DNA from: a virus
Direction: 5' to 3' (one strand)
Length of the DNA stretch: 64,000 bases
IMG/VR virus record: IMGVR_UViG_3300008261_000001
Coordinates: 124,001 to 188,000 of that record
Shown here: in pieces, positions 4,841-62,881 of the stretch
Position numbering within the stretch: the first letter of the stretch is position 1
Layout of the letters: each line of letters starts with the position of its first letter
Translations under genes and position numbers: made by a program
The notes under the pieces: generated by a model
Databases searched by the model: none
Seen by the model: only the letters and a program-made list of their open reading frames with translations
Told to the model about the DNA's origin: nothing

Positions 4841-7516
4841 TCACCCCTGACAGCTAAGGCACTCGTCTACTTCTTTAAGTGCCTTACGCTCGACCTTTTG
4901 GGAGACTTTATCTGCCACCACACCTGCTGAGGTACGGAGGTAATAGAGTCCCTTAAGTCCCTTCTTCCAAGCGGACAAGTGAACAGCGTTGACATAGTTC
5001 ACATCTGACCCTGCTGGAAAGAACAAGTTGACGCTCTGACCTTGACATATCCATTCTTGGCGGACAGAGGCGTGTTCGACTATCCACATTTGGTCTAGCT
5101 CGAACGCGGTCTTAAATACCTGCTTGTCGTGGTCGGTTAAGAAATCCAAGTGCTGTACGCTCCCTTGTTTAAGGATAACAGATTGGATAGTTTCATTGAG
5201 CCAACCATCGGGATTCTCTTGGGATAAGCTGTGAGTTTTTAGTTTATCCAATAGGTATTTATTCACCTGTAGGAAAGAACCTGCCCTAGTTCTATGGGTA
5301 AAGGCGTTGGACTTCCACGGCTCAATAGAGGGTGAAGTATCCAAAATGATGGCGGAGTTAGCGTTGGGGGCGATGGCGAGGAGGTGCGAGTTCCTCATGC
5401 CTGTGCCGATGCCGTCTAGGTACTCACCTTTAAGCTGTGCTAGACGCTGAGAAGAAGCGACCGACTTATCTTTTATGTGGTTAAAGATTTTCCTATTGGC
5501 GATGGTAGCCCAGAGGGACTCGAAGGCGATGTTTTTCTTTTGTAGATAGGAGTGGAAGCCCATAGTGCCGAGTCCAAGCGACCGCTCGTGTTTAGCCGAG
5601 TAAATAGCTTTGGATAACTTAGCGGGTGCATGGTCTATGAAGTACTGAAGCACATCGTCTAGGAACTCAACCAAGTCCTCAACGATGGTGGTGTTTTCCC
5701 ACTCGTCAAAGTACTCTAAGTTTAGGCTGGAGAGACAACAGACAGCGGAGCGGTCTTTGGCTGTGGGAAGATGGATCTCGTTGCAGTTTCCTGTGAGAAC
5801 CCCATTGAAAACACCCATATGTCGTAGGGGCTCGTTAAAACAATAGGTGTCTGCATAACCGTTTTCAGTCACACTCTCGATCTTGACGAAGCGAGAGGCA
5901 GAGCGGGAGGGTGTATGTTGTTCGATGGTGAGTCGGTGTGTCTTCAGTCCAAGATTGAGGAGCTTTTGTGTGTCTACGGAGTTAATAAGGATACGCCACG
6001 CTTCACGACACCTATAAACGCCTCCGCCTCTGACTCCGAAGTCGATGTTCCTCTCGCCTGCGAAGTGGGAAATCTTCGGTTGTACACCAAGAGTGTTGAG
6101 CATGAGGCTCAAGTCGGTCAAGAAACCCCTATTTGTGGACACTAGCTGTAGTGACTGATTTTTACCATTTCTTGACACACAACCGTCAGCGTCTAAGAGA
6201 CCAGAGAGCCAATCCATTCTCGTCTTGAGAGATAGGTTCAAAGGCACCTGAAACTTGGGCTTAATGTCTGATTTTGGATATTTCACAACGAGTCGGTTTT
6301 GATCCTCGTTTCTGTAAACCTTAGCCTGTGGGGTAATCAACTTATCCAATAAGGAGGTCTTTGCTCCATAAAGATAAGTGATGGGTTGCTTCACTTGGTT
6401 GTATGTCCCGTCTCCTGTGAAAAATCCGCAAGCATAAGCATTTTCCCAATAGCCTTGTCCATCGACTGTAGGTAAATCAAACTTCAGTAGCTTGAGTCCG
6501 CTCTTGAGGTCTTTTGCTTCAAGGACTCTCTCATTTTCGTCATAAAACTTGTGATAAGGGGTTGTATTAAGGGTGACTCCATTAGTGAGTTTCACCTCCA
6601 AAATCTGTTGGTTTTCACCCGTCTTTAAGATCCGAGTTTGAGACCAAGTCTTTCCATTCCAAACCTCCACCTCACGCCCCACTAGAGACTCAATCGGAAA
6701 GTATCCATTTTTCGTTAAGATTTGTGTGTCGCCTCTAACGCACAGATTAGAGCCGTGTATTTCTAACCCTTTGTCTTTGAGGGCTTGGGGTAAATGGCGA
6801 TTAGCCGTATCTATGAAGTTCAAGTAAGGCTCACCTGTACGAAACCTTACCTCTAAGATTCTCTGCCAAAGGCTACGGGCATCTAGGGTGTCCCTCACCT
6901 CTTTGCTCTTAGGGTCGATCAAGTCCCATGTGCCTCCCTTGAACACCGCCTCCATGAACTTATCCGTGATGTTGATGGCGTTGTTGAGGGTGAAGCACTT
7001 TCTGTTCGTATCTCCACCTGTGGGGACACGGATATTTAAGAACTCTACGATGTCGGGGTGGGACACCTCCAAATAAGCCGCATACGAGCCTTTACGGGTT
7101 GAACCTTGCTTATAAGCACCCATGTCGGCATCGACCGTCTTTAGAAAGGGAATGGGTCCAGGGGCTTTATTGGATACCGAGCGTATATTTGACCAATGTC
7201 CACCTACACCACCACCCAAGACGCTCATCCACCGCAGTTCTTCGGAGTGAGAAATCAACCCCTCGATGGTGTCGTCCACATAGGTGAGAAAACAAGAGAT
7301 GGGCATCCCTTGTCCCTCAGCGTTGGATAAGATGGGTGAGGAGAACATGAACCAACCTTTAGAGGCGTAGTCGAATATCCTCTGAGCTAGTTCTTTGTTG
7401 GGCGTGTACGCATAAGCGGCTCTCTTAAAAGCGTCTAGGGGAGAGCTGTCTTCTCCCTTTAGGTAGTAGCTCTCTAATAAAGACTTGGCGTGGTCTGAAA
7501 AATGGAAACTATCCAT
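4841..7516 (-). CDS. nrdA: ribonucleotide reductase class I, large (catalytic) subunit, interrupted by an intein
   Basis: 891 residues before splicing, ~572 after removal of the intein (residues 259-577). Catalytic features: redox Cys75 (PISCF), N257 and, after splicing, C578 and E580, which rebuild the NLC-x-E radical site; the second redox Cys at 593/594; Y858-Y859 of the radical path (GLYYLRTS); and a C-terminal CLSC pair (886, 889) that re-reduces the active site. C75 corresponds to E. coli C225, so the N-terminal ATP-cone region used for dATP inhibition is absent. The start is ATG 7514-7516 with CGGAGA upstream. It works with NrdB (2476-3447). Confidence 0.96.
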   Translation of the reverse strand: MDSFHFSDHAKSLLESYYLKGEDSSPLDAFKRAAYAYTPNKELAQRIFDYASKGWFMFSSPILSNAEGQGMPISCFLTYVDDTIEGLISHSEELRWMSVLGGGVGGHWSNIRSVSNKAPGPIPFLKTVDADMGAYKQGSTRKGSYAAYLEVSHPDIVEFLNIRVPTGGDTNRKCFTLNNAINITDKFMEAVFKGGTWDLIDPKSKEVRDTLDARSLWQRILEVRFRTGEPYLNFIDTANRHLPQALKDKGLEIHGSNLCVRGDTQILTKNGYFPIESLVGREVEVWNGKTWSQTRILKTGENQQILEVKLTNGVTLNTTPYHKFYDENERVLEAKDLKSGLKLLKFDLPTVDGQGYWENAYACGFFTGDGTYNQVKQPITYLYGAKTSLLDKLITPQAKVYRNEDQNRLVVKYPKSDIKPKFQVPLNLSLKTRMDWLSGLLDADGCVSRNGKNQSLQLVSTNRGFLTDLSLMLNTLGVQPKISHFAGERNIDFGVRGGGVYRCREAWRILINSVDTQKLLNLGLKTHRLTIEQHTPSRSASRFVKIESVTENGYADTYCFNEPLRHMGVFNGVLTGNCNEIHLPTAKDRSAVCCLSSLNLEYFDEWENTTIVEDLVEFLDDVLQYFIDHAPAKLSKAIYSAKHERSLGLGTMGFHSYLQKKNIAFESLWATIANRKIFNHIKDKSVASSQRLAQLKGEYLDGIGTGMRNSHLLAIAPNANSAIILDTSPSIEPWKSNAFTHRTRAGSFLQVNKYLLDKLKTHSLSQENPDGWLNETIQSVILKQGSVQHLDFLTDHDKQVFKTAFELDQMWIVEHASVRQEWICQGQSVNLFFPAGSDVNYVNAVHLSAWKKGLKGLYYLRTSAGVVADKVSQKVERKALKEVDECLSCQG
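5786..6742 (-). mobile_element. intein with LAGLIDADG endonuclease domain inside NrdA
   Basis: Residues 259-577 of the nrdA product. Block A starts at Cys259 (CVRGDTQILTKNGYFPIESL). Block B is TTPYHKF. Two dodecapeptide-like motifs (CGFFTGDGT near 363-371, LSGLLDADGC near 438-446) mark a LAGLIDADG homing endonuclease. The end reads FNGVLTGN, followed by extein Cys578. The usual penultimate His is Gly, a known but less common variant. Splicing joins SNL to CNE, so the intein splits the catalytic cysteine site of the enzyme. Confidence 0.92.
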
Positions 7517-8627: not shown

Positions 8628-8669
8628 TCATTATAGGCTACTAGGGCTTCATTATAGGCTACTAGGGCT
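8628..8669 (-). repeat. exact tandem 21-bp repeat with TATAAT in each unit
   Basis: Units 8628-8648 and 8649-8669 are identical. On the minus strand each reads AGCCCTAGTAGCC followed by TATAATGA. It covers the end of the delta-prime gene and the gap before the delta gene, and could be duplicated -10 boxes for the delta gene. Confidence 0.75.
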
Positions 8670-9246
8670 ACAACCCTAAGAAGTACCCATAGAGGGCGAC
8701 TTGACTCATCTGTGGTCGCCTCAATAACGACTTCAACCCCTCCGTATAGAACCTCAAGTCTCCCCTCTTAACACTCACTTCCACTAACGCTTCTAAAATG
8801 CCCCTATAATCGTCTTTTGAGAGGCTACCCACTACCCCACATACCCCCAAGAGGTTATCTTGCAATAGAGCCTCAAATAAACGCTCTCCTTCCTCATAGA
8901 GTCGGTGGCGTGTAGGGGGAGCAAAGTGATAACGCTCCCCACAGCGAGAGCGGATGGTTTCTGGGACCGATCCAAAGTCGTAAGCCCAAAGGATAAGCTC
9001 AGGTGCTCCCACATAGGGTTCCTCGATACGCTTGAGGAGAATATCCAATGTAGAGGGGTTGGCTTCGTCTAGGGGTCCAGCGACTAGGGTTGGATTCTTA
9101 TGAGGCCAAGTTTGGCTGTAAGCCTCGACCAAGTCCCTTACAGCGTCTGCCTTTAAATCTCTGTAGGGTGGCTTCACTAGGGTCTTACCCTCTAGGAGTT
9201 CACCGAGTCCTGTCTCCACACCTAGTCCATGATGTATCAGTATCAA
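8668..9246 (-). CDS. delta-prime (HolB)-like clamp-loader subunit, short form
   Basis: 192 residues, against ~330 in bacterial delta-prime. Recognisable segments are DLKADAVRDLVEAYS, then GPLDEANPSTLDILLKRIEEP and LILWAYDFGSVPETIRSRCGERYHF, matching the sensor-1 and SRC-motif region of clamp-loader AAA+ subunits (LLKxLEEP ... TIRSRC). The Walker A region is missing, as is acceptable for a stator-like delta-prime. Start: no ATG is available; TTG 9244-9246 after GTAGAGGACT is the best candidate, so the exact N-terminus is uncertain. The same leftward unit contains the delta-like gene. Confidence 0.65.
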   Translation of the reverse strand: MILIHHGLGVETGLGELLEGKTLVKPPYRDLKADAVRDLVEAYSQTWPHKNPTLVAGPLDEANPSTLDILLKRIEEPYVGAPELILWAYDFGSVPETIRSRCGERYHFAPPTRHRLYEEGERLFEALLQDNLLGVCGVVGSLSKDDYRGILEALVEVSVKRGDLRFYTEGLKSLLRRPQMSQVALYGYFLGL

Positions 9247-9364
9247 AGTCCTCTACCCCTTCTCGGTCTTACTTTATGTGTGACCATCACATATAGAGCT
9301 TATCCCTGTGACGCTGTAAGGCGACGCTACCACAACCCCCATTATAAGCATTTAAAGGGGGTCT

Positions 9365-9748
9365 CCTAAGGGTTTTAACCCCTACCCCCTAGTGGGACAC
9401 AAAAAACTTGTGAAGACCCTTAGGGATGTCGTATAAGGGAGGTTGTTCACTCCATAGGCTTTAGAGCTTATAGAGGCGTAGCCAAGTCACGAGTGGCTAG
9501 ACTTCTTTGAAACCTACCAAACTCGACAACCTAGAGGGGGTGGATACCCTTTAGGTTTGACTAGGCTATGGGTAACACCCACTAAGAGGGATCTGTCGTT
9601 TACGATACGCTCTTAGCGAACTCACCCCATAATCTAACCTGTTCATACGCTGAGGCTTAAGGGTCTATCCAATAGAGAAGAAGGTTCTCTATCTACGATG
9701 ACCAAACAGCCCTAGAGAGATGGATGGCTCCAATCACTTCCGTTGGAG
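9365..9748. ncRNA. candidate structured RNA, first part (stacked hairpins)
   Basis: Perfect complements include 9365-9373 with 9416-9424 (CCTAAGGGT/ACCCTTAGG), 9479-9484 with 9494-9499 (TAGCCA/TGGCTA), 9673-9679 with 9685-9691 (TAGAGAA/TTCTCTA, 5-nt loop) and 9728-9733 with 9743-9748 (CTCCAA/TTGGAG). The density of short stems in non-coding sequence suggests a folded RNA. The transcribed strand is not determined. Confidence 0.4.
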
Positions 9749-9840
9749 GTTCTGTCTAGTACCTCGTCTTTAAGGTTATCCTTAGGACTCGTACTAAACT
9801 CCTTCTAGTCTCCTACTCCGTATCTCTCTCTTATCCACCA

Positions 9841-9917
9841 CTAGAGAACAACACCTAGAAATATTGTTCTTCTCTAGCTGTCCTTCAGTATCCAATCCTC
9901 TAGGTGTTAGATACTGA
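9841..9917. ncRNA. candidate kissing-loop pair of hairpins
   Basis: Hairpin 1: CTAGAGAACAA (9841-9851) pairs with TTGT...TCTCTAG (9864-9877), with a bulge. Hairpin 2: TCAGTATC (9885-9892) pairs perfectly with GATACTGA (9910-9917). The first loop, including the adjacent stem A, holds ACACCTAGA (9851-9859), the exact complement of TCTAGGTGT (9899-9907) in the second loop. Nine loop-loop base pairs between neighbouring hairpins are hard to explain by chance. Confidence 0.5.
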
Positions 9918-9958
9918 GTCCTCTTATCCTCTCTACTACTAGATATCTCTCTCTTAGT

Positions 9959-9994
9959 ACTACTAGTAAGACATCTACTACTAGTAAGACATCT
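9959..9994. repeat. tandem 18-bp repeat
   Basis: ACTACTAGTAAGACATCT occurs twice back to back (9959-9976, 9977-9994), then a partial third unit (ACTACTG). It leads into a hairpin at 10006-10045. Confidence 0.85.
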
Positions 9995-10005
9995 ACTACT
10001 GAATA

Positions 10006-10071
10006 GGATAAGAACTTACTAACTACTAAGTAGTAAGTATTATCCCTCTCTTTGAACTAAGAGAGGGGATA
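10006..10071. ncRNA. two overlapping, mutually exclusive hairpins
   Basis: First: GGATAA (10006-10011) with TTATCC (10040-10045), enclosing ACTTACTA (10014-10021) with TAGTAAGT (10031-10038). Second: TATCCCTCTCTT (10041-10052) with AAGAGAGGGGATA (10059-10071), one bulge. They share 10041-10045, so only one can form fully at a time, as in a switch. Confidence 0.45.
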
Positions 10072-10117
10072 GTGGATATAGGACATGAGAGGATACGAAG
10101 TATCGTCTAAGGACTAT

Positions 10118-10560
10118 AGCCAATAACTAATAACCAACCTACTCCACCTACTACTACTCAACTACCAACTACTCTCACTCAACCTCTAACTACTCAACAA
10201 CCTCTAACTACAACTCCTACAACTACTACTAATACTCAACTAACTCCTACTGCTCAACTAACTATAACTCCTACTGCTCAACTAACTACACCTACTACTA
10301 CAACTACCCTTATGACTCCTTCTAATCCTACTGCTCTTACAACTCCTAATCCTACTGCTCCTACTACTACTAATATAACCAATACACCTACTATGAATCC
10401 TACTCCTACTACCCTTATGACCTCTACTACTGCTGCTCCTACTCGTAATATGGATACTTCTCTTAGTACTTCTAATCCTACAGCTAGATCTCTTATAGCT
10501 CCTACTACTGCTCCTACTACTGCTCTTACTCCTACTACTAGAGTATCTCTAACTGAGTAG
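10118..10560 (+). other. Thr/Pro/Asn/Gln low-complexity open frame, probably not a normal gene
   Basis: One frame is open without stops from the codon after TAG 10117-10119 to the TAG at 10558-10560. It is built of ACT, CCT, CTA, CAA and AAT codons (units such as TPTAQLT, PTAPTTT, NPTA). The TAA-containing word CTAACT recurs but stays out of frame. Against translation: the first ATG is at 10312, there is no Shine-Dalgarno sequence, and the composition is almost G-free. It may be a repeat tract of a structured RNA or origin, or a decayed repetitive protein. Confidence 0.45.
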
Positions 10561-10588
10561 AGTTATCCAATATCTCTTAAAATAGATA

Positions 10589-10613
10589 AGGTGTTGGTTG
10601 AAGTCCAACACCT
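10589..10613. other. perfect 9-bp hairpin
   Basis: AGGTGTTGG (10589-10597) and CCAACACCT (10605-10613) with a 7-nt loop, shortly after the low-complexity block. It is terminator-like in strength but no T-run follows on either side. A second small hairpin, CTATCC...GGATAG, lies at about 10640-10656. Confidence 0.6.
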
Positions 10614-10659
10614 ACTAGAAATAAGAAATATCATCATCCTCTATCCGTAATGGATAGAT

Positions 10660-10885
10660 AGAACTTATCAGTTCAGTAAGAGAGAGAAGGGAAGATAGTA
10701 GATAGAGAGATAGAACTTATCAGTAAAGATAAGATGGAAAGAGATAGAACTTACTAGAGGATAGAGAGAGAGGGATAGATAGAGAGAGGGATAGATAGAG
10801 AGAGGGATAGAGAACTTATCAGTAAGGAGAGTAAATAGTCACCTTACGGAGATAAATGGATAGTCACCTTACTGAGATAAATGGA
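10660..10885 (+). repeat. purine-rich repeat tract
   Basis: The + strand is A/G/T-rich. It contains three copies of GAACTTATCAGT (near 10670, 10713 and 10812) plus a related GAACTTACTAG, and repeated GGGATAGATAGAGAGA units (about 10755-10810). The tract ends in a tandem 25-bp repeat at 10836-10860 and 10861-10885 with one mismatch (TAGTCACCTTACG/TGAGATAAATGGA). Confidence 0.8.
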
Positions 10886-10972
10886 AAGAATGGGTTTAGG
10901 TTAGAGCTTATAGGTCTTGGGGAGTGAGTTAATCTTATAAGGGTTGGTTGAGAAGAAAGGAGGGTGAACCCT

Positions 10973-59146: not shown

Positions 59147-59221
59147 GCTCCCATCGTCTAGTCTGGCCTAGGACGCAGGACTTTCACTCCTGTAACACGG
59201 GTTCAAATCCCGTTGGGAGTA
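59147..59221 (+). tRNA. tRNA-Glu (TTC)
   Basis: Acceptor GCTCCCA pairs with TGGGAGT (G1-U72 wobble), D-arm region GTCTAG...CTAGGAC, anticodon arm CAGGA-CT-TTC-AC-TCCTG, T-arm ACGGG-TTCAAAT-CCCGT. CCA is not encoded. A strong terminator follows. Confidence 0.92.
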
Positions 59222-59231
59222 CTCTCAACCG

Positions 59232-59268
59232 AACCCCCACTTAGCTCACCCCTAAGTGGGGGTTTCTC
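59232..59268 (+). terminator. Rho-independent-type terminator after tRNA-Glu
   Basis: AACCCCCACTTAG (59232-59244) and CTAAGTGGGGGTT (59252-59264), a perfect 13-bp stem with a 7-nt loop, followed by TCTCATTT. Confidence 0.8.
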
Positions 59269-59287
59269 ATTTAAGGGGTACACAAAG

Positions 59288-59485
59288 ATGAATCAGATAC
59301 ACAAGCGTGTTTGGGACTTTGTCAGTGAATCTCTTGGCACTAAAAAAAGAACCTTAAAGTCCCATATGGAAGGGAGCTTTAAAACCCCTTTTGGATACAC
59401 TCACGAGGCTTATACTGCGTTGCTTGAAGAAGAGATTTCTACGCTTGAGAAGATCCTAGAGAAGATAACTAACTTAGACGACTAG
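59288..59485 (+). CDS. small hypothetical protein (65 aa)
   Basis: ATG 59288 with AAGGGG upstream; an in-frame earlier codon would read through tRNA and terminator. MNQIHKRVWDFVSESLGTKK, then KSHMEGSFKTPFGYTHEAYT and a C-terminal helix (LLEEEISTLEKILEKIT). Soluble; no family named. Confidence 0.6.
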   Translation: MNQIHKRVWDFVSESLGTKKRTLKSHMEGSFKTPFGYTHEAYTALLEEEISTLEKILEKITNLDD

Positions 59486-59521
59486 GCTCTTATAATGGAT
59501 ACCGAACGGAGGTGTCCAAGT

Positions 59522-59677
59522 ATGAACGGAAACTTTAACTTTATGGTGTTCTACGCGGTGGTTTCTTTGCTTGTGTGGTTCTTTTGTGCGGACTATGAGT
59601 TCATAGCGTTTATGATATGCTTACTCAGCGTTGGGCATTTCTTCGGTTGGATGCTTGACGAACTCGGTTATGAGTAG
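59522..59677 (+). CDS. small membrane protein (51 aa)
   Basis: ATG 59522 follows CGGAGGTG; an ATG at 59495 has no site. Two hydrophobic helices (NFMVFYAVVSLLVWFFCADY and FIAFMICLLSVGHFFGWML) make up nearly the whole protein. Its 3' end overlaps the leftward gene at 59625 by 53 nt. Holin-like in size and shape only. Confidence 0.55.
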   Translation: MNGNFNFMVFYAVVSLLVWFFCADYEFIAFMICLLSVGHFFGWMLDELGYE

Positions 59678-60497
59678 CTTGCCACCTTGAGGCGACCCGT
59701 TTGTGAGCGAGCTTTTGCTGTCCGAACTCTTTCTCGTACCAATCAAGATAACCTGGTGCATCCTCTGAAGACTCCGCCCCACTTATCCATTTTAAGTAGG
59801 CAGGTGTGAGTAGCTCGGTGATGGGGATTTGTGAAAGAGCCGCCGCCTTAGCGGGACCAATAAACTTAGAAGCCCAAACAGGCATAGAGTGCAATACCAC
59901 TTCCACAATCACGATGGGTAGTGCAGTCTTGATTCCGTACTTCTTAACCGCGTGTACGATTTGCTTTATGAGTTCAATGGGGTTGAGGGTGTGCAGTATA
60001 TCGCTTAGTTTAGTGGAAACCACCTTTTGACCTACAAGGTCACTCCACTCTCGTAATCCTTGCTCCACCACCATCTTTTGGAGTCTAGGACTCCAAGTAC
60101 TGCCTCTGTTCTCCTCGTAGTACATATATCCAGCGTTCCAATCCTCATTGCCCTTAGAGGGCTTGAGGTCAAGCTCGGCATAACCCTCTGAGAAGGTCAG
60201 CTCTTGTTGACGAGCCTCAAATCCTGCTTTCCATTCTTCCACATGGAGTTCTATCTGAGCCTCTCGGATAACCCTCGTCATCTCAGGGGCGAGGTGCTTA
60301 ATCGTGATGTCGAAGAGTTCCTCAAGAGGCTGACCCCACAGCTTCTTAGGCAGATCCACGAGTTTCATTGTGGGGTTTTTGATATAGTCAACGAAGAAGG
60401 TTTTGAGGCTGTCACCTACACCAGCTTCATGCTCAAGTAGAGCGACTTTTACTTGTAGTTCTGCGATACGCTTTAGCTGTGCTTGTCTATCCATCAT
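59625..60497 (-). CDS. hypothetical virion-type protein (290 aa)
   Basis: AGGAGAACTAACC precedes ATG 60495-60497. N-terminus MDRQAQLKRIAELQVKVALLE is tag-like (Arg-Ile-Ala ... Leu-Leu-Glu) compared with the RTASEVLRSLE proteins. The middle has KKYGIKTALPIVIVEVVLHS, a moderately hydrophobic helix. The C-terminus KRVASRWQATHNRVRQASNR is basic, recalling the RVAxRY segments elsewhere. A TTTATA box and short CCAA/TTGG hairpin lie upstream. Function unknown. Confidence 0.65.
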   Translation of the reverse strand: MMDRQAQLKRIAELQVKVALLEHEAGVGDSLKTFFVDYIKNPTMKLVDLPKKLWGQPLEELFDITIKHLAPEMTRVIREAQIELHVEEWKAGFEARQQELTFSEGYAELDLKPSKGNEDWNAGYMYYEENRGSTWSPRLQKMVVEQGLREWSDLVGQKVVSTKLSDILHTLNPIELIKQIVHAVKKYGIKTALPIVIVEVVLHSMPVWASKFIGPAKAAALSQIPITELLTPAYLKWISGAESSEDAPGYLDWYEKEFGQQKLAHKRVASRWQATHNRVRQASNRRNAQR

Positions 60498-60603
60498 GGT
60501 TAGTTCTCCTGTGTTGTTTAAGCCAATATGGGTTGGTCTATAAACAAATAAATAGTGGTATTATGGTGTGTGTTCTTAACCCCACCCTTAGGAGTGAGAA
60601 GCT

Positions 60604-60906
60604 ATGAGCGATTTTGAGACAAAGCAGACAGAACTTAAGTTGGAGAAGAAGCACCTTGATTTTGAAAAGAAGTGCCGTGAGGAGAGCTTGCGTTTTGAGG
60701 TGCTTCAGTTCGCACTAGAGGTCGCTCGTTTATCCAATACTGATTCGCCCATCTCTTACGACCATCTTTTGTTTATTGCTGAGGATATGCTCTCGTTTGT
60801 ACAGAACAAGAAGTCTAAGGCAGAGCCTATTGCAGTCGAGGTGGAAGCACCCAAGAAGAAGGTGTCCTCGAAGCTGAAGGCGAACCCTTCGAGCTTGCTT
60901 CCTTAA
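60604..60906 (+). CDS. hypothetical coiled-coil protein (100 aa)
   Basis: TTAGGAGTGAGAAGCT precedes ATG. Residues 5-45 form a charged helix (TELKLEKKHLDFEKKCREES); the C-terminus is Lys/Pro-rich. It is followed by a T8 run (60909-60916) and the tRNA cluster. No family recognised. Confidence 0.6.
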   Translation: MSDFETKQTELKLEKKHLDFEKKCREESLRFEVLQFALEVARLSNTDSPISYDHLLFIAEDMLSFVQNKKSKAEPIAVEVEAPKKKVSSKLKANPSSLLP

Positions 60907-60953
60907 GATTTTTTTTAACACACCCTTTCATTTGGTATAAAGGGGTGTACTTC

Positions 60954-61027
<74 letters not shown>

Positions 61028-61034
61028 GCTCTTT

Positions 61035-61117
61035 GGGGGGATGTCCGAGTGGTCAAAGGAATCGGGCTGTAAACCCGACCTCGTTAGAGTTCGGAGGTTC
61101 AAATCCTCCTCCCCCCA
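61035..61117 (+). tRNA. tRNA-Tyr (GTA)
   Basis: Acceptor GGGGGGA with TCCCCCC, anticodon arm TCGGG-CT-GTA-AA-CCCGA, long class II variable arm, T-arm GGAGG-TTCAAAT-CCTCC. Confidence 0.95.
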
Positions 61118-61132
61118 CTCGTTTTAACTTAT

Positions 61133-61204
61133 GCGGGAATAGCTCAATGGTAGAGCGTCAGCCTTCCAAGCTGAATGTTGCGGGTTCAAGTCCCGTTTTC
61201 CGCT
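61133..61204 (+). tRNA. tRNA-Gly (TCC)
   Basis: Acceptor GCGGGAA with TTTCCGC, anticodon arm TCAGC-CT-TCC-AA-GCTGA, T-arm GCGGG-TTCAAGT-CCCGT. Confidence 0.95.
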
Positions 61205-61248
61205 CTCTACAAGCACAAACCTCTTTGAAAGAAACAAAAGGACTTAAG

Positions 61249-61800
61249 GTGAGAAATCTTATTGTATCTTTATCTATCCTATTCTTGGGCATGAGCGTGA
61301 GCTACGCTGAAGTCCCTACTTGTGCAGGCTCTAAGTACTCTATCCCCTTTAAGGGGATAACCTTTGGCATGAAGCAAGCAGATGCTGTTAAGAAGTTGAG
61401 GGCAGACAATCCATCTCTGATTGTGACCGCAGACGCAGAGGGTGTTAAGATGAAATACCCTCTCTCTCAGCAACAGATTTTTGATGAGGTTCGCCTTCTT
61501 ATCCTCGATGGGTATGTACACGAGGTGCTTATTTCTTACAGCAACAGCTTCCAAGACGAGCAAGGCGGACCTGCGAAGGCAGCGTTGAATATCATTAAGA
61601 ACGCAAACGAGAAGTTCGGACTAGCCCTCGACAAAGAGCCTGTAGAGGGTGGTTTCCGATTCGTTTGGGCATCCGACAATGGTGCAGGCTTCCGAGTGAC
61701 AGCTAAAGACCCTTACACGATTGTGATGGGTTATAACTGCGAGCCCCTTACGGACTACCTCACAGAGAAGAAGCGTAAGACCACAAACTTCGGCTTCTAA
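61249..61800 (+). CDS. secreted or periplasmic hypothetical protein (183 aa)
   Basis: GTG 61249 with AAAGGAC upstream; a longer in-frame reading runs back through tRNA genes and is rejected. Signal peptide of about 21 residues, ending GMSVSYA before EVPTCAG, a standard signal-peptidase site. The mature part begins with YSIPFKGITFGMKQADAVKK, similar to small bacterial periplasmic proteins with a GITFGM motif. Cys in PTCAG and YNCEP may form a disulphide. A secreted phage protein could alter the host envelope. Confidence 0.7.
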   Translation: MRNLIVSLSILFLGMSVSYAEVPTCAGSKYSIPFKGITFGMKQADAVKKLRADNPSLIVTADAEGVKMKYPLSQQQIFDEVRLLILDGYVHEVLISYSNSFQDEQGGPAKAALNIIKNANEKFGLALDKEPVEGGFRFVWASDNGAGFRVTAKDPYTIVMGYNCEPLTDYLTEKKRKTTNFGF

Positions 61801-61958
61801 GCTCCAATAATGGTTGCGAGGGCGAGGGCGATGAGGACATAGAAGGGTGCGGTTACAAGAGCGTTCATTAGTGCCATCCGAGGGTTGCCCTCGGAGTACT
61901 GAGCGGATTGGTAAAAGGCAAGGGTAGTAGCCCAACCGACAAGTAGTGCGTCTGTCAT
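61797..61958 (-). CDS. tiny membrane protein, second of a coupled pair (53 aa)
   Basis: Its ATG overlaps the upstream stop (ATGA). MTDALLVGWATTLAFYQSAQ is weakly hydrophobic, and residues 33-52 (ALVTAPFYVLIALALATIIG) form a clear membrane helix. It overlaps the convergent secreted-protein gene by 4 nt. Holin-like pair together with the upstream gene, unproven. Confidence 0.6.
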   Translation of the reverse strand: MTDALLVGWATTLAFYQSAQYSEGNPRMALMNALVTAPFYVLIALALATIIGA

Positions 61959-62113
61959 TTTGTAATCCATAGGTGTATGCTTGTGAAGAGAAGCATATAG
62001 ATGGGTGAGAGGAGGGGCATGACGAATATCGTCCCGACAGCTTTTACGCTGTGGTATCCGCCTAAGAAAAATCCAAAGAGCAAGATGGCTAGTTGTTGTT
62101 CTTCGTGTGTCAT
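61955..62113 (-). CDS. tiny membrane protein, first of a coupled pair (52 aa)
   Basis: A strong AAGGAGATAAA precedes ATG 62111-62113. Two hydrophobic segments, 8-20 (LAILLFGFFLGGY) and 27-50 (GTIFVMPLLSPIYMLLFTSI). Shares an ATGA overlap with the next gene. Candidate holin or antiholin; no family identified. Confidence 0.65.
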   Translation of the reverse strand: MTHEEQQLAILLFGFFLGGYHSVKAVGTIFVMPLLSPIYMLLFTSIHLWITK

Positions 62114-62220
62114 TTTATCTCCTTCTGTTGCCCACCTTATATGGTGGCTTCGAGGTTGACAATAACTTTCTTTATAGGAAAGTTGTGTAAACGATGGTAT
62201 AATCCCATCGATGGTTCTAT

Positions 62221-62293
62221 GCGACTATAGCTCAGTTGGTAGAGCATCGGTCTTACACACCGAATGTCACAGGTTCAAGCCCTGTTGGTCGCA
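62221..62293 (+). tRNA. tRNA-Val (TAC)
   Basis: Acceptor GCGACTA with TGGTCGC, D-arm GCTC...GAGC, anticodon arm TCGGT-CT-TAC-AC-ACCGA, T-arm CACAGG-TTCAAGC-CCTGT. Confidence 0.95.
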
Positions 62294-62350
62294 GTCTGAT
62301 ACCCACAATCCCGTGGGTACAGAGCATACCCGCCTGGGTTGTGCGTGTTG

Positions 62351-62407
62351 TGGTGGGGGGTGGTGGGTTTGGTCGTACCTCGTGTTCGGTCAGACCCATC
62401 ACCCCCC
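62351..62407. terminator. GC-rich hairpin after tRNA-Val
   Basis: GGGGGGTGGTGGGT pairs with ACCCATCACCCCCC (one G-T), with a ~24-nt loop. CCTTTTATAAG follows on the + strand. It overlaps the last codons of the leftward gene at 62399. Confidence 0.6.
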
Positions 62408-62734
62408 ATGTCCTTTTATAAGTTTATTAAGCTCTTCTATTAAGACTGAGATAAGGCTGAAGTGTAGTTGAATCGTTTCTCCTCTGATTGTAATCACAGC
62501 CCTTTGGGTAGCGTGGTACAAACAGATACAATACTGCCCCTCTGCCATAACTTCCACATCGAAGTTGTTAAAGGACTTTTCACTTCGTTTTAAGCCTCTG
62601 TTAAGAAAACCTTCGATATTAGCAAGTTCTCTAGGCGAAACCTTAACCTGTAGGGTCTCTGGGCTTACGCATCCGTGGTCATCAAGGTAAGCGACTTGGA
62701 GGTACTCATTCTCTGTGATTCGACAAATAATCAC
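62399..62734 (-). CDS. hypothetical protein (111 aa)
   Basis: GTG 62732-62734 with AAAGGGGC 4 nt upstream. VIICRITENEYLQVAYLDDH-type strand-rich start, a helix (SPRELANIEGFLNRGLKRSE), strands (VEVMAEGQYCICLYHATQRA) and a C-terminal helix (LISVLIEELNKLIKG). Looks like a compact alpha/beta protein. No named family. Confidence 0.6.
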   Translation of the reverse strand: MIICRITENEYLQVAYLDDHGCVSPETLQVKVSPRELANIEGFLNRGLKRSEKSFNNFDVEVMAEGQYCICLYHATQRAVITIRGETIQLHFSLISVLIEELNKLIKGHGG

Positions 62735-62808
62735 TTTAGCCCCTTTGTTCTGCTGTTATAACACCCTCTCATGTTTATAGATTCAGCAGTAGGGCTACGA
62801 CAGCAAAA

Positions 62809-62881
62809 CGCTCTCTCTAGGACTTGAACCTAGAACCTATCGGTTAACAGCCGATTGCTCTGACCATTGAGCTAAGAGAGC
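62809..62881 (-). tRNA. tRNA-Asn (GTT)
   Basis: Minus strand: acceptor GCTCTCT with AGAGAGC, D-arm GCTC...GAGC, anticodon arm ATCGG-CT-GTT-AA-CCGAT, T-arm CTAGG-TTCAAGT-CCTAG. The only leftward tRNA of the six. Confidence 0.95.

Follow-up and report, generated by a model that had tools for sequence, protein, structure and literature searches.

Between a clamp-loader-like gene and a RecD2-like helicase gene of a huge phage lies a region that, judged by comparison with related sequences, appears to hold a new family of structured RNA, which would be transcribed rightward and the structure of which is well supported. The folded part is followed directly by an open, threonine-rich reading frame, which in nearly all lineages has no start codon that could be used. 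The comparison between lineages brings out the structure, the strand, the position and the frame together with its conservation, and these suggest a folded domain that would load ribosomes onto the start-less frame without an AUG, a reading that we put forward tentatively and at a little under an even chance.

The locus and its composition

The window considered here is a stretch of 64,000 nucleotides, representing positions 124001-188000 of a virus record of 290,179 bases in all. Its longest run free of open reading frames (cut-off 80 amino acids) is the 1065 nt at 9247-10311, and a further 403 nt, 10561-10963, are likewise without a frame of at least 80 amino acids; the features in and around these runs are collected in Table 1. 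The helicase probably starts at ATG 10973, which is a better fit to relatives than the listed GTG. Along the region the composition passes from a pyrimidine-rich block (approximately 9800-9960) through a G-poor block (10120-10560, with 5% G) to a purine-rich one (10640-10880). A first-pass annotation had described a region with no gene preceded by a ribosome-binding site, full of perfect hairpins and repeats, alternating in composition and set between diverging replication genes. This description is borne out in that the region has no canonical gene with a ribosome-binding site, perfect hairpins and both direct and inverted repeats are found, the three compositional blocks succeed one another and the flanking genes do diverge. 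The accompanying term non-coding, however, is valid only outside 10120-10560, because that interval is a conserved open frame; the suggestion of an RNA was right and the start-less threonine-rich frame had been missed.

Table 1 Features of the region, in window coordinates.
Feature	Position	Strand	Basis or remark
Clamp-loader-like gene	8668-9246	-	left flank of region
Sigma70-like promoter	9408..9437	+	-35 TTGTGA 9408-9413, 18-nt spacer, -10 TATAAG 9432-9437
Structured RNA domain, promoter to end of closing region	9444..10119	+	fold, conservation, covariance model, covariation
Helix H2, TGGGT-AAC-ACCCA hairpin	9569..9581	+	G-C/A-U/U-A exchanges among relatives
Helices H3/H4, CTAAGAG...CTCTTAG	9582..9616	+	conserved GGGAT and TACGC
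Conserved motif TGTTCATACGC	9640..9650	+	invariant in most relatives
Helix H8 with hairpins H9 (loop TCACTTCCG) and H10	9715..9814	+	covariation
Long-range closing helix, ACTCCGTATC with GATACGAAGT	9815-9824 with 10092-10101	+	covariation
Shine-Dalgarno-like TAAGGA	10108..10113	+	just past closing helix, 9 nt before ATA
Start-less Thr/Pro-rich frame, 146 codons + TAG	10120..10560	+	openness, composition, conservation
Presumed 3' region	10561..10950	+	hairpin, purine-rich repeats
Hairpin	10590-10613	+	within presumed 3' region
CTTATC-AGTAAR-GATAAG hairpins in purine-rich repeats	10648-10828	+	four related copies
Tandem 25-mers	10835-10884	+	within presumed 3' region
RecD2-like helicase	listed from GTG 10964	+	right flank of region

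Transcription would start near 9444, from a putative promoter that matches the consensus, which is not in itself proof of function; in seven of the eight sequences such a site scores highest at the corresponding position just ahead of the RNA. Only tens of bases separate the predicted promoter from the beginning of the RNA in the core-bearing lineages, so that an exon further upstream is unlikely. A group I or group II intron was considered and rejected, there being no match to an Rfam catalytic core and no room for exon 1 before the RNA. Beyond the frame, the CTTATC-AGTAAR-GATAAG hairpin is found as a single copy in G012, G028 and L189 (L121 about 1960-1990).

A covarying RNA core

Folding of the plus strand over 9440-10135 gives -230.7 kcal/mol, whereas 20 shuffled versions average -186.2 (z = -5.3), and the minus strand of the same interval gives z = -7.1. 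Orientation comes from G-U pairs, which are held in 7-8 of the eight sequences at columns 163-262, 164-261 and 182-190; as these kept pairs would be A-C on the other strand, the RNA is the plus strand. The consensus core of the eight sequences comprises 10 helices and 57 pairs, of which 31 carry compensatory changes on both sides. Within this small alignment, from which the consensus was itself derived, 91.3% of core cells are paired, a share that drops to 36-45% once the 3' partners are slid, and the observed core score was reached by none of 500 shuffles. Because the consensus came from the same alignment the slide control favours it to some degree, a bias of which the compensatory changes are free.

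The changes are spread over several helices, with both-side changes in six pairs of H3/H4 (100% of cells paired), in nine of the 13 pairs of H8 and in three of the six pairs of H9, and the motif TGTTCATACGC is identical in the window, L003, G001, G012, G028, L189 and G011 and varied in G003. The H9 loop AATCACTTCCGTT (window 9728-9748) bears what we take to be a likeness to the 3' end of 16S rRNA around the anti-Shine-Dalgarno, a likeness that is absent from the G012 group. The closing helix, which encloses lineage-specific hairpins, has 59 of 68 cells paired across 7 variants, with up to 4 pair types per position in rows aligned by hand. In the window it forms nine of its ten pairs with its own partner strand and three with that of G011, which in turn forms eight with its own, such that strand swaps between divergent lineages break the helix.

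No family in Rfam 15 is matched by the region at gathering score, and only three sub-threshold, chance-level rows appear at E <= 10; the relatives, searched at E <= 5, give no family match either. Both the Infernal search and the covariation analysis among related phages had been proposed as checks in the first-pass annotation, and its suggestion of a new large RNA class gains support from their outcome as well as from the conserved promoter and genome position.

Distribution among huge phages

How far does this RNA extend beyond the phage in which it was noticed? The nearest relatives, L002, L003 and L008, have a helicase that is 82% identical and keep the region as blocks that are more alike than the adjacent coding DNA, with lineage-specific hairpins between them. 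A terminase search led to a clade of huge-phage records, which was then searched with the region and the clamp-loader protein; the terminase of the uncultured 485-kb phage LR745208 is 64% identical. The RNA was found in G001, G012, G028, L189-L191 (identical to one another), G011 with L186/L187, and G002/G003. In these relatives it adjoins the clamp-loader gene, from which it diverges, and is compact at 341-372 nt, as compared with an expanded version of about 700 nt in the window. Homology of the core is demonstrated in six lineages only, and the more divergent G009, G031, G032, G037, G041 and G027 match in place and type of frame only.

A covariance model built from eight sequences, the window among them, gives one match per record at 86-114 bits in the core-bearing records (9561-9667 and 86 bits in the window) and recovers no other record convincingly. 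Because the same or close records supplied the model, these matches report copy number and confinement and are not independent confirmation. A DNA similarity search of the phage collection with the region gave no match, a helicase-based search returned close relatives only, and a looser motif pattern yielded no additional lineage by the covariance model. The exact motif pattern occurs outside the family as chance matches only, in 13 bacterial genome contigs and three extra viral contigs. Also set aside were a weak model match in G043 (E 0.013), in AT-rich sequence without the motifs, a match in L103 (G005) that is a coding coincidence, and a 29-nt match at 61642 of the same record, which falls in another frame of a gene. 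No earlier description of the RNA was found in the open-access papers searched.

The start-less frame

The frame at 10120-10557 adjoins the end of the closing helix, begins PITNNQPTPPTTTQLPTT and ends RVSLTE. It is free of stops, of which the two alternative frames contain 13 and 12; none of 2000 and none of 500 shuffles was as open, and with 40% threonine it is the most threonine-rich of the 802 open frames of at least 35 codons in the window. No ATG, GTG or TTG is present before codon 65 in the window, nor is there one anywhere in the 139-codon frame of L003 or in the frames of G012, G028, G003, G041, G032, G031 and G037. The first such codon comes late in G001, L189 and G027, and in G009 the second codon is an in-frame GTG.

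A frame rich in threonine, serine, asparagine and lysine occupies the matching place in all six core-bearing lineages, with examples in L003, G001, G012/G028/L189 (RVKKNTKKKTTTTTLTSTSSSS...), G003 (NKKTNNTNKNTSTNTKK...) and G011. Comparable frames lie near the clamp-loader gene, after folding sequence, in G041, G027, G009 (RTSRTPTPTTSRTPTP...), G032, G031 and G037, some of which are GC-rich and none of which has detectable core homology upstream of the frame. The frame is without in-frame stops in each lineage tested; in G011 an in-frame TAA interrupts a lysine run, after which the frame continues into the downstream gene. On the minus strand of L155 (G011) a Ser/Thr-rich frame runs stop-free from 2506 into the downstream protein MITTTIPKDSLLK..., in the manner of an extension at its N-terminus.

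The codons used differ markedly between lineages: threonine is specified by ACT in 48 of 59 cases in the window, by ACC in 12 of 14 in G031 and by ACA in 13 of 26 in G037 (ACA or ACG mostly), and serine mostly by TCN in G001 and only by AGY in G031. Indels within the frame among G012, G028 and L189 are of 3 or 30 bases, all multiples of three, as against indels of any length past its stop, and across the frame-bearing lineages nearly all are multiples of three. In an alignment of the window with L003 that was made without frame information, 379 of the 416 aligned bases are in phase. Because the amino-acid make-up is kept while the codons change, and because the indels come in triplets, we consider that the frame is probably translated. 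The share of ACT among threonine codons is 81% in the window's frame versus 26% in the phage's genes, and since codon choice departs from that of the genes in this way, expansion in three-base units may add to the openness of the frame and could explain part of it. The open frame alone is not significant in the short, GC-rich lineages G031 (p 0.16) and G037 (p 0.37).

Entry into the frame

By what route, then, might a ribosome enter such a frame? A Shine-Dalgarno-like run past the closing helix recurs in most lineages, the purine runs of the relatives being TAAGG, TGAGG and GAAGGTG, with a weak TAGAG in G012. No start or near-cognate codon is common to the lineages, and no upstream open reading frame able to feed the frame by frameshifting is shared among them. 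The in-frame stop before the frame lies about 16-37 nt past the closing helix in some lineages and upstream of the helix in others. In L158 (G023) and L159 (G027) the frame is preceded by ATGACGTATTAA and ATGACGTAATAA, respectively, and a very short ATG open reading frame overlaps the TGA that precedes it.

In the model proposed here, the RNA would be transcribed from the plus strand by its own promoter, with the folded domain (9444-10119) placed almost at the start of transcription. The domain would end in the long-range helix and the Shine-Dalgarno-like run, beyond which the open Thr/Ser-rich frame would be under constraint at the level of protein. The folded domain would capture ribosomes and set them on the frame without AUG initiation, and the product would be a low-complexity peptide made early in infection. 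That the RNA is transcribed and its frame translated, that entry needs no AUG, and when the peptide is made and what it might do are matters that we infer, and structure-dependent entry without an AUG is the best working model, though unproven. It weighs against this model that neither the distance nor the register of the entry codon relative to the closing helix is constant, and the TAA in G011, the GTG in G009, the odd choice of codons, the non-significance in G031 and G037 and the restriction of demonstrated core homology to six lineages also count against it. That huge phages have a native RNA element which makes bacterial ribosomes produce a Thr/Ser-rich peptide in a structure-dependent way and without an AUG is possible rather than probable; the idea, part of the same AUG-less reading, that the element may be a natural prokaryotic counterpart of the factorless IRES is offered with equal reserve.

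The main rival is a large, structured, non-coding phage RNA, a scaffold or particle akin to GOLLD or ROOL, within which the G-poor tract would be an unstructured linker expanded by triplets. It can be entertained, albeit with doubt, as strong structure and covariation, low-complexity triplet repeats, a codon choice unlike that of the genome's genes and a frame without a start codon would all suit it, but without translation it is difficult to account for divergence of a synonymous type, in which even the serine codons change family, and for indels confined to triplets in a run of heterogeneous codons. It seems unlikely that translation begins in the ordinary way, from the Shine-Dalgarno-like run and a near-cognate codon such as AUA, ACG or AUU; here the RNA would be a cis-regulator acting on that initiation or on RNA stability. 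The spacing of 9 nt between TAAGGA and ATA in the window and L003, together with the purine runs elsewhere, speaks for such initiation, yet no near-cognate codon at a usable spacing is common across the lineages, and the ordinary window genes checked begin with ATG, two being listed as GTG/TTG.

A tmRNA has the layout of a structured RNA plus a reading frame without a start codon, and this arrangement is also found here, so that a tmRNA-like molecule onto whose start-less frame ribosomes switch in trans has to be weighed. It is nonetheless highly improbable. ARAGORN and cmscan against Rfam detect no tRNA-like domain in the window and four relatives, the sole tRNA-like row (10556-10617, 19 bits) being sub-threshold and its hairpin not seen in L003. 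No SmpB domain is present in the 290-kb record, although the host could supply SmpB. The frame is longer than that of tmRNA (SsrA), Thr/Ser-rich and without a tag-like C-terminus, no C-terminal tag is common to the lineages, and in G011 the frame enters the downstream gene. The replication origin that had earlier been suggested, with the tandem 25-mers and purine repeats as iterons between diverging replication genes, can be given hardly any weight. The divergent flanks, the repeats and a local minimum of cumulative GC skew are in its favour, but the skew, measured as had been proposed and in 4-kb pieces sampled along the 290-kb record, changes sign many times, mostly follows the coding strand and offers no unique switch independent of gene direction. 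Moreover, covariation with G-U pairs marks an RNA, and the location is tied to the clamp-loader gene and not to the helicase: in G012 the RNA lies about 17 kb from the helicase gene and tracks the clamp-loader gene.

Comparison with known systems

GOLLD and ROOL are large, strongly structured phage RNAs of unknown function, built of conserved and variable domains (PMC12286853). The RNA described here is similarly large, strongly structured and phage-borne, but the region matches neither covariance model (Rfam 15, gathering score and E <= 10) and the RNA of the window ends in a start-less reading frame; GOLLD and ROOL, which are further marked by a homo-oligomeric RNA cage, often adjoin tRNA genes, whereas the nearest tRNA in the window is about 48 kb away. 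The dicistrovirus intergenic-region IRES, which is factorless and starts at a non-AUG codon, shares with the AUG-less model a structured RNA directly upstream of an AUG-less frame, and it is reported to work in E. coli as well, with ribosomal protein S1 as mediator (PMC9458429). It differs in that there is no sequence match or Rfam match to known IRES models, that the entry codon here is not fixed relative to the last helix and that the host domain is another. Because the distance from helix to frame varies, the comparison weighs against an IRES of exactly the dicistrovirus type, and the RNA is neither a tmRNA nor a dicistrovirus IRES. The template of a diversity-generating retroelement was also rejected, as the reverse transcriptase PF00078 is absent from the 290-kb record, which is possibly incomplete.

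A covarying RNA without an Rfam match in several huge-phage lineages is already a new family, and, should its frame be translated, protein synthesis would begin here in a manner that is not known from bacteria or from bacterial viruses. Genes for initiation factors, ribosomal proteins and other parts of the translation machinery are found in huge phages, a group for which a takeover of host translation has already been suspected (PMC7162821); an RNA that acts on ribosomes would be in keeping with such genes, although S21 and RF-1 domains, like SmpB, were not found in the present record. The natural element is compact, at about 340-370 nt, which suits it to a reporter test.

Other features of the window

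The ribonucleotide reductase large subunit encoded on the minus strand at 4841-7516 carries within its barrel a LAGLIDADG_3 domain (residues 436-485), which suggests an intein. Six tRNA genes (Glu, Arg, Tyr, Gly, Val and Asn) occupy 59147-62881, at the window's right-hand end.
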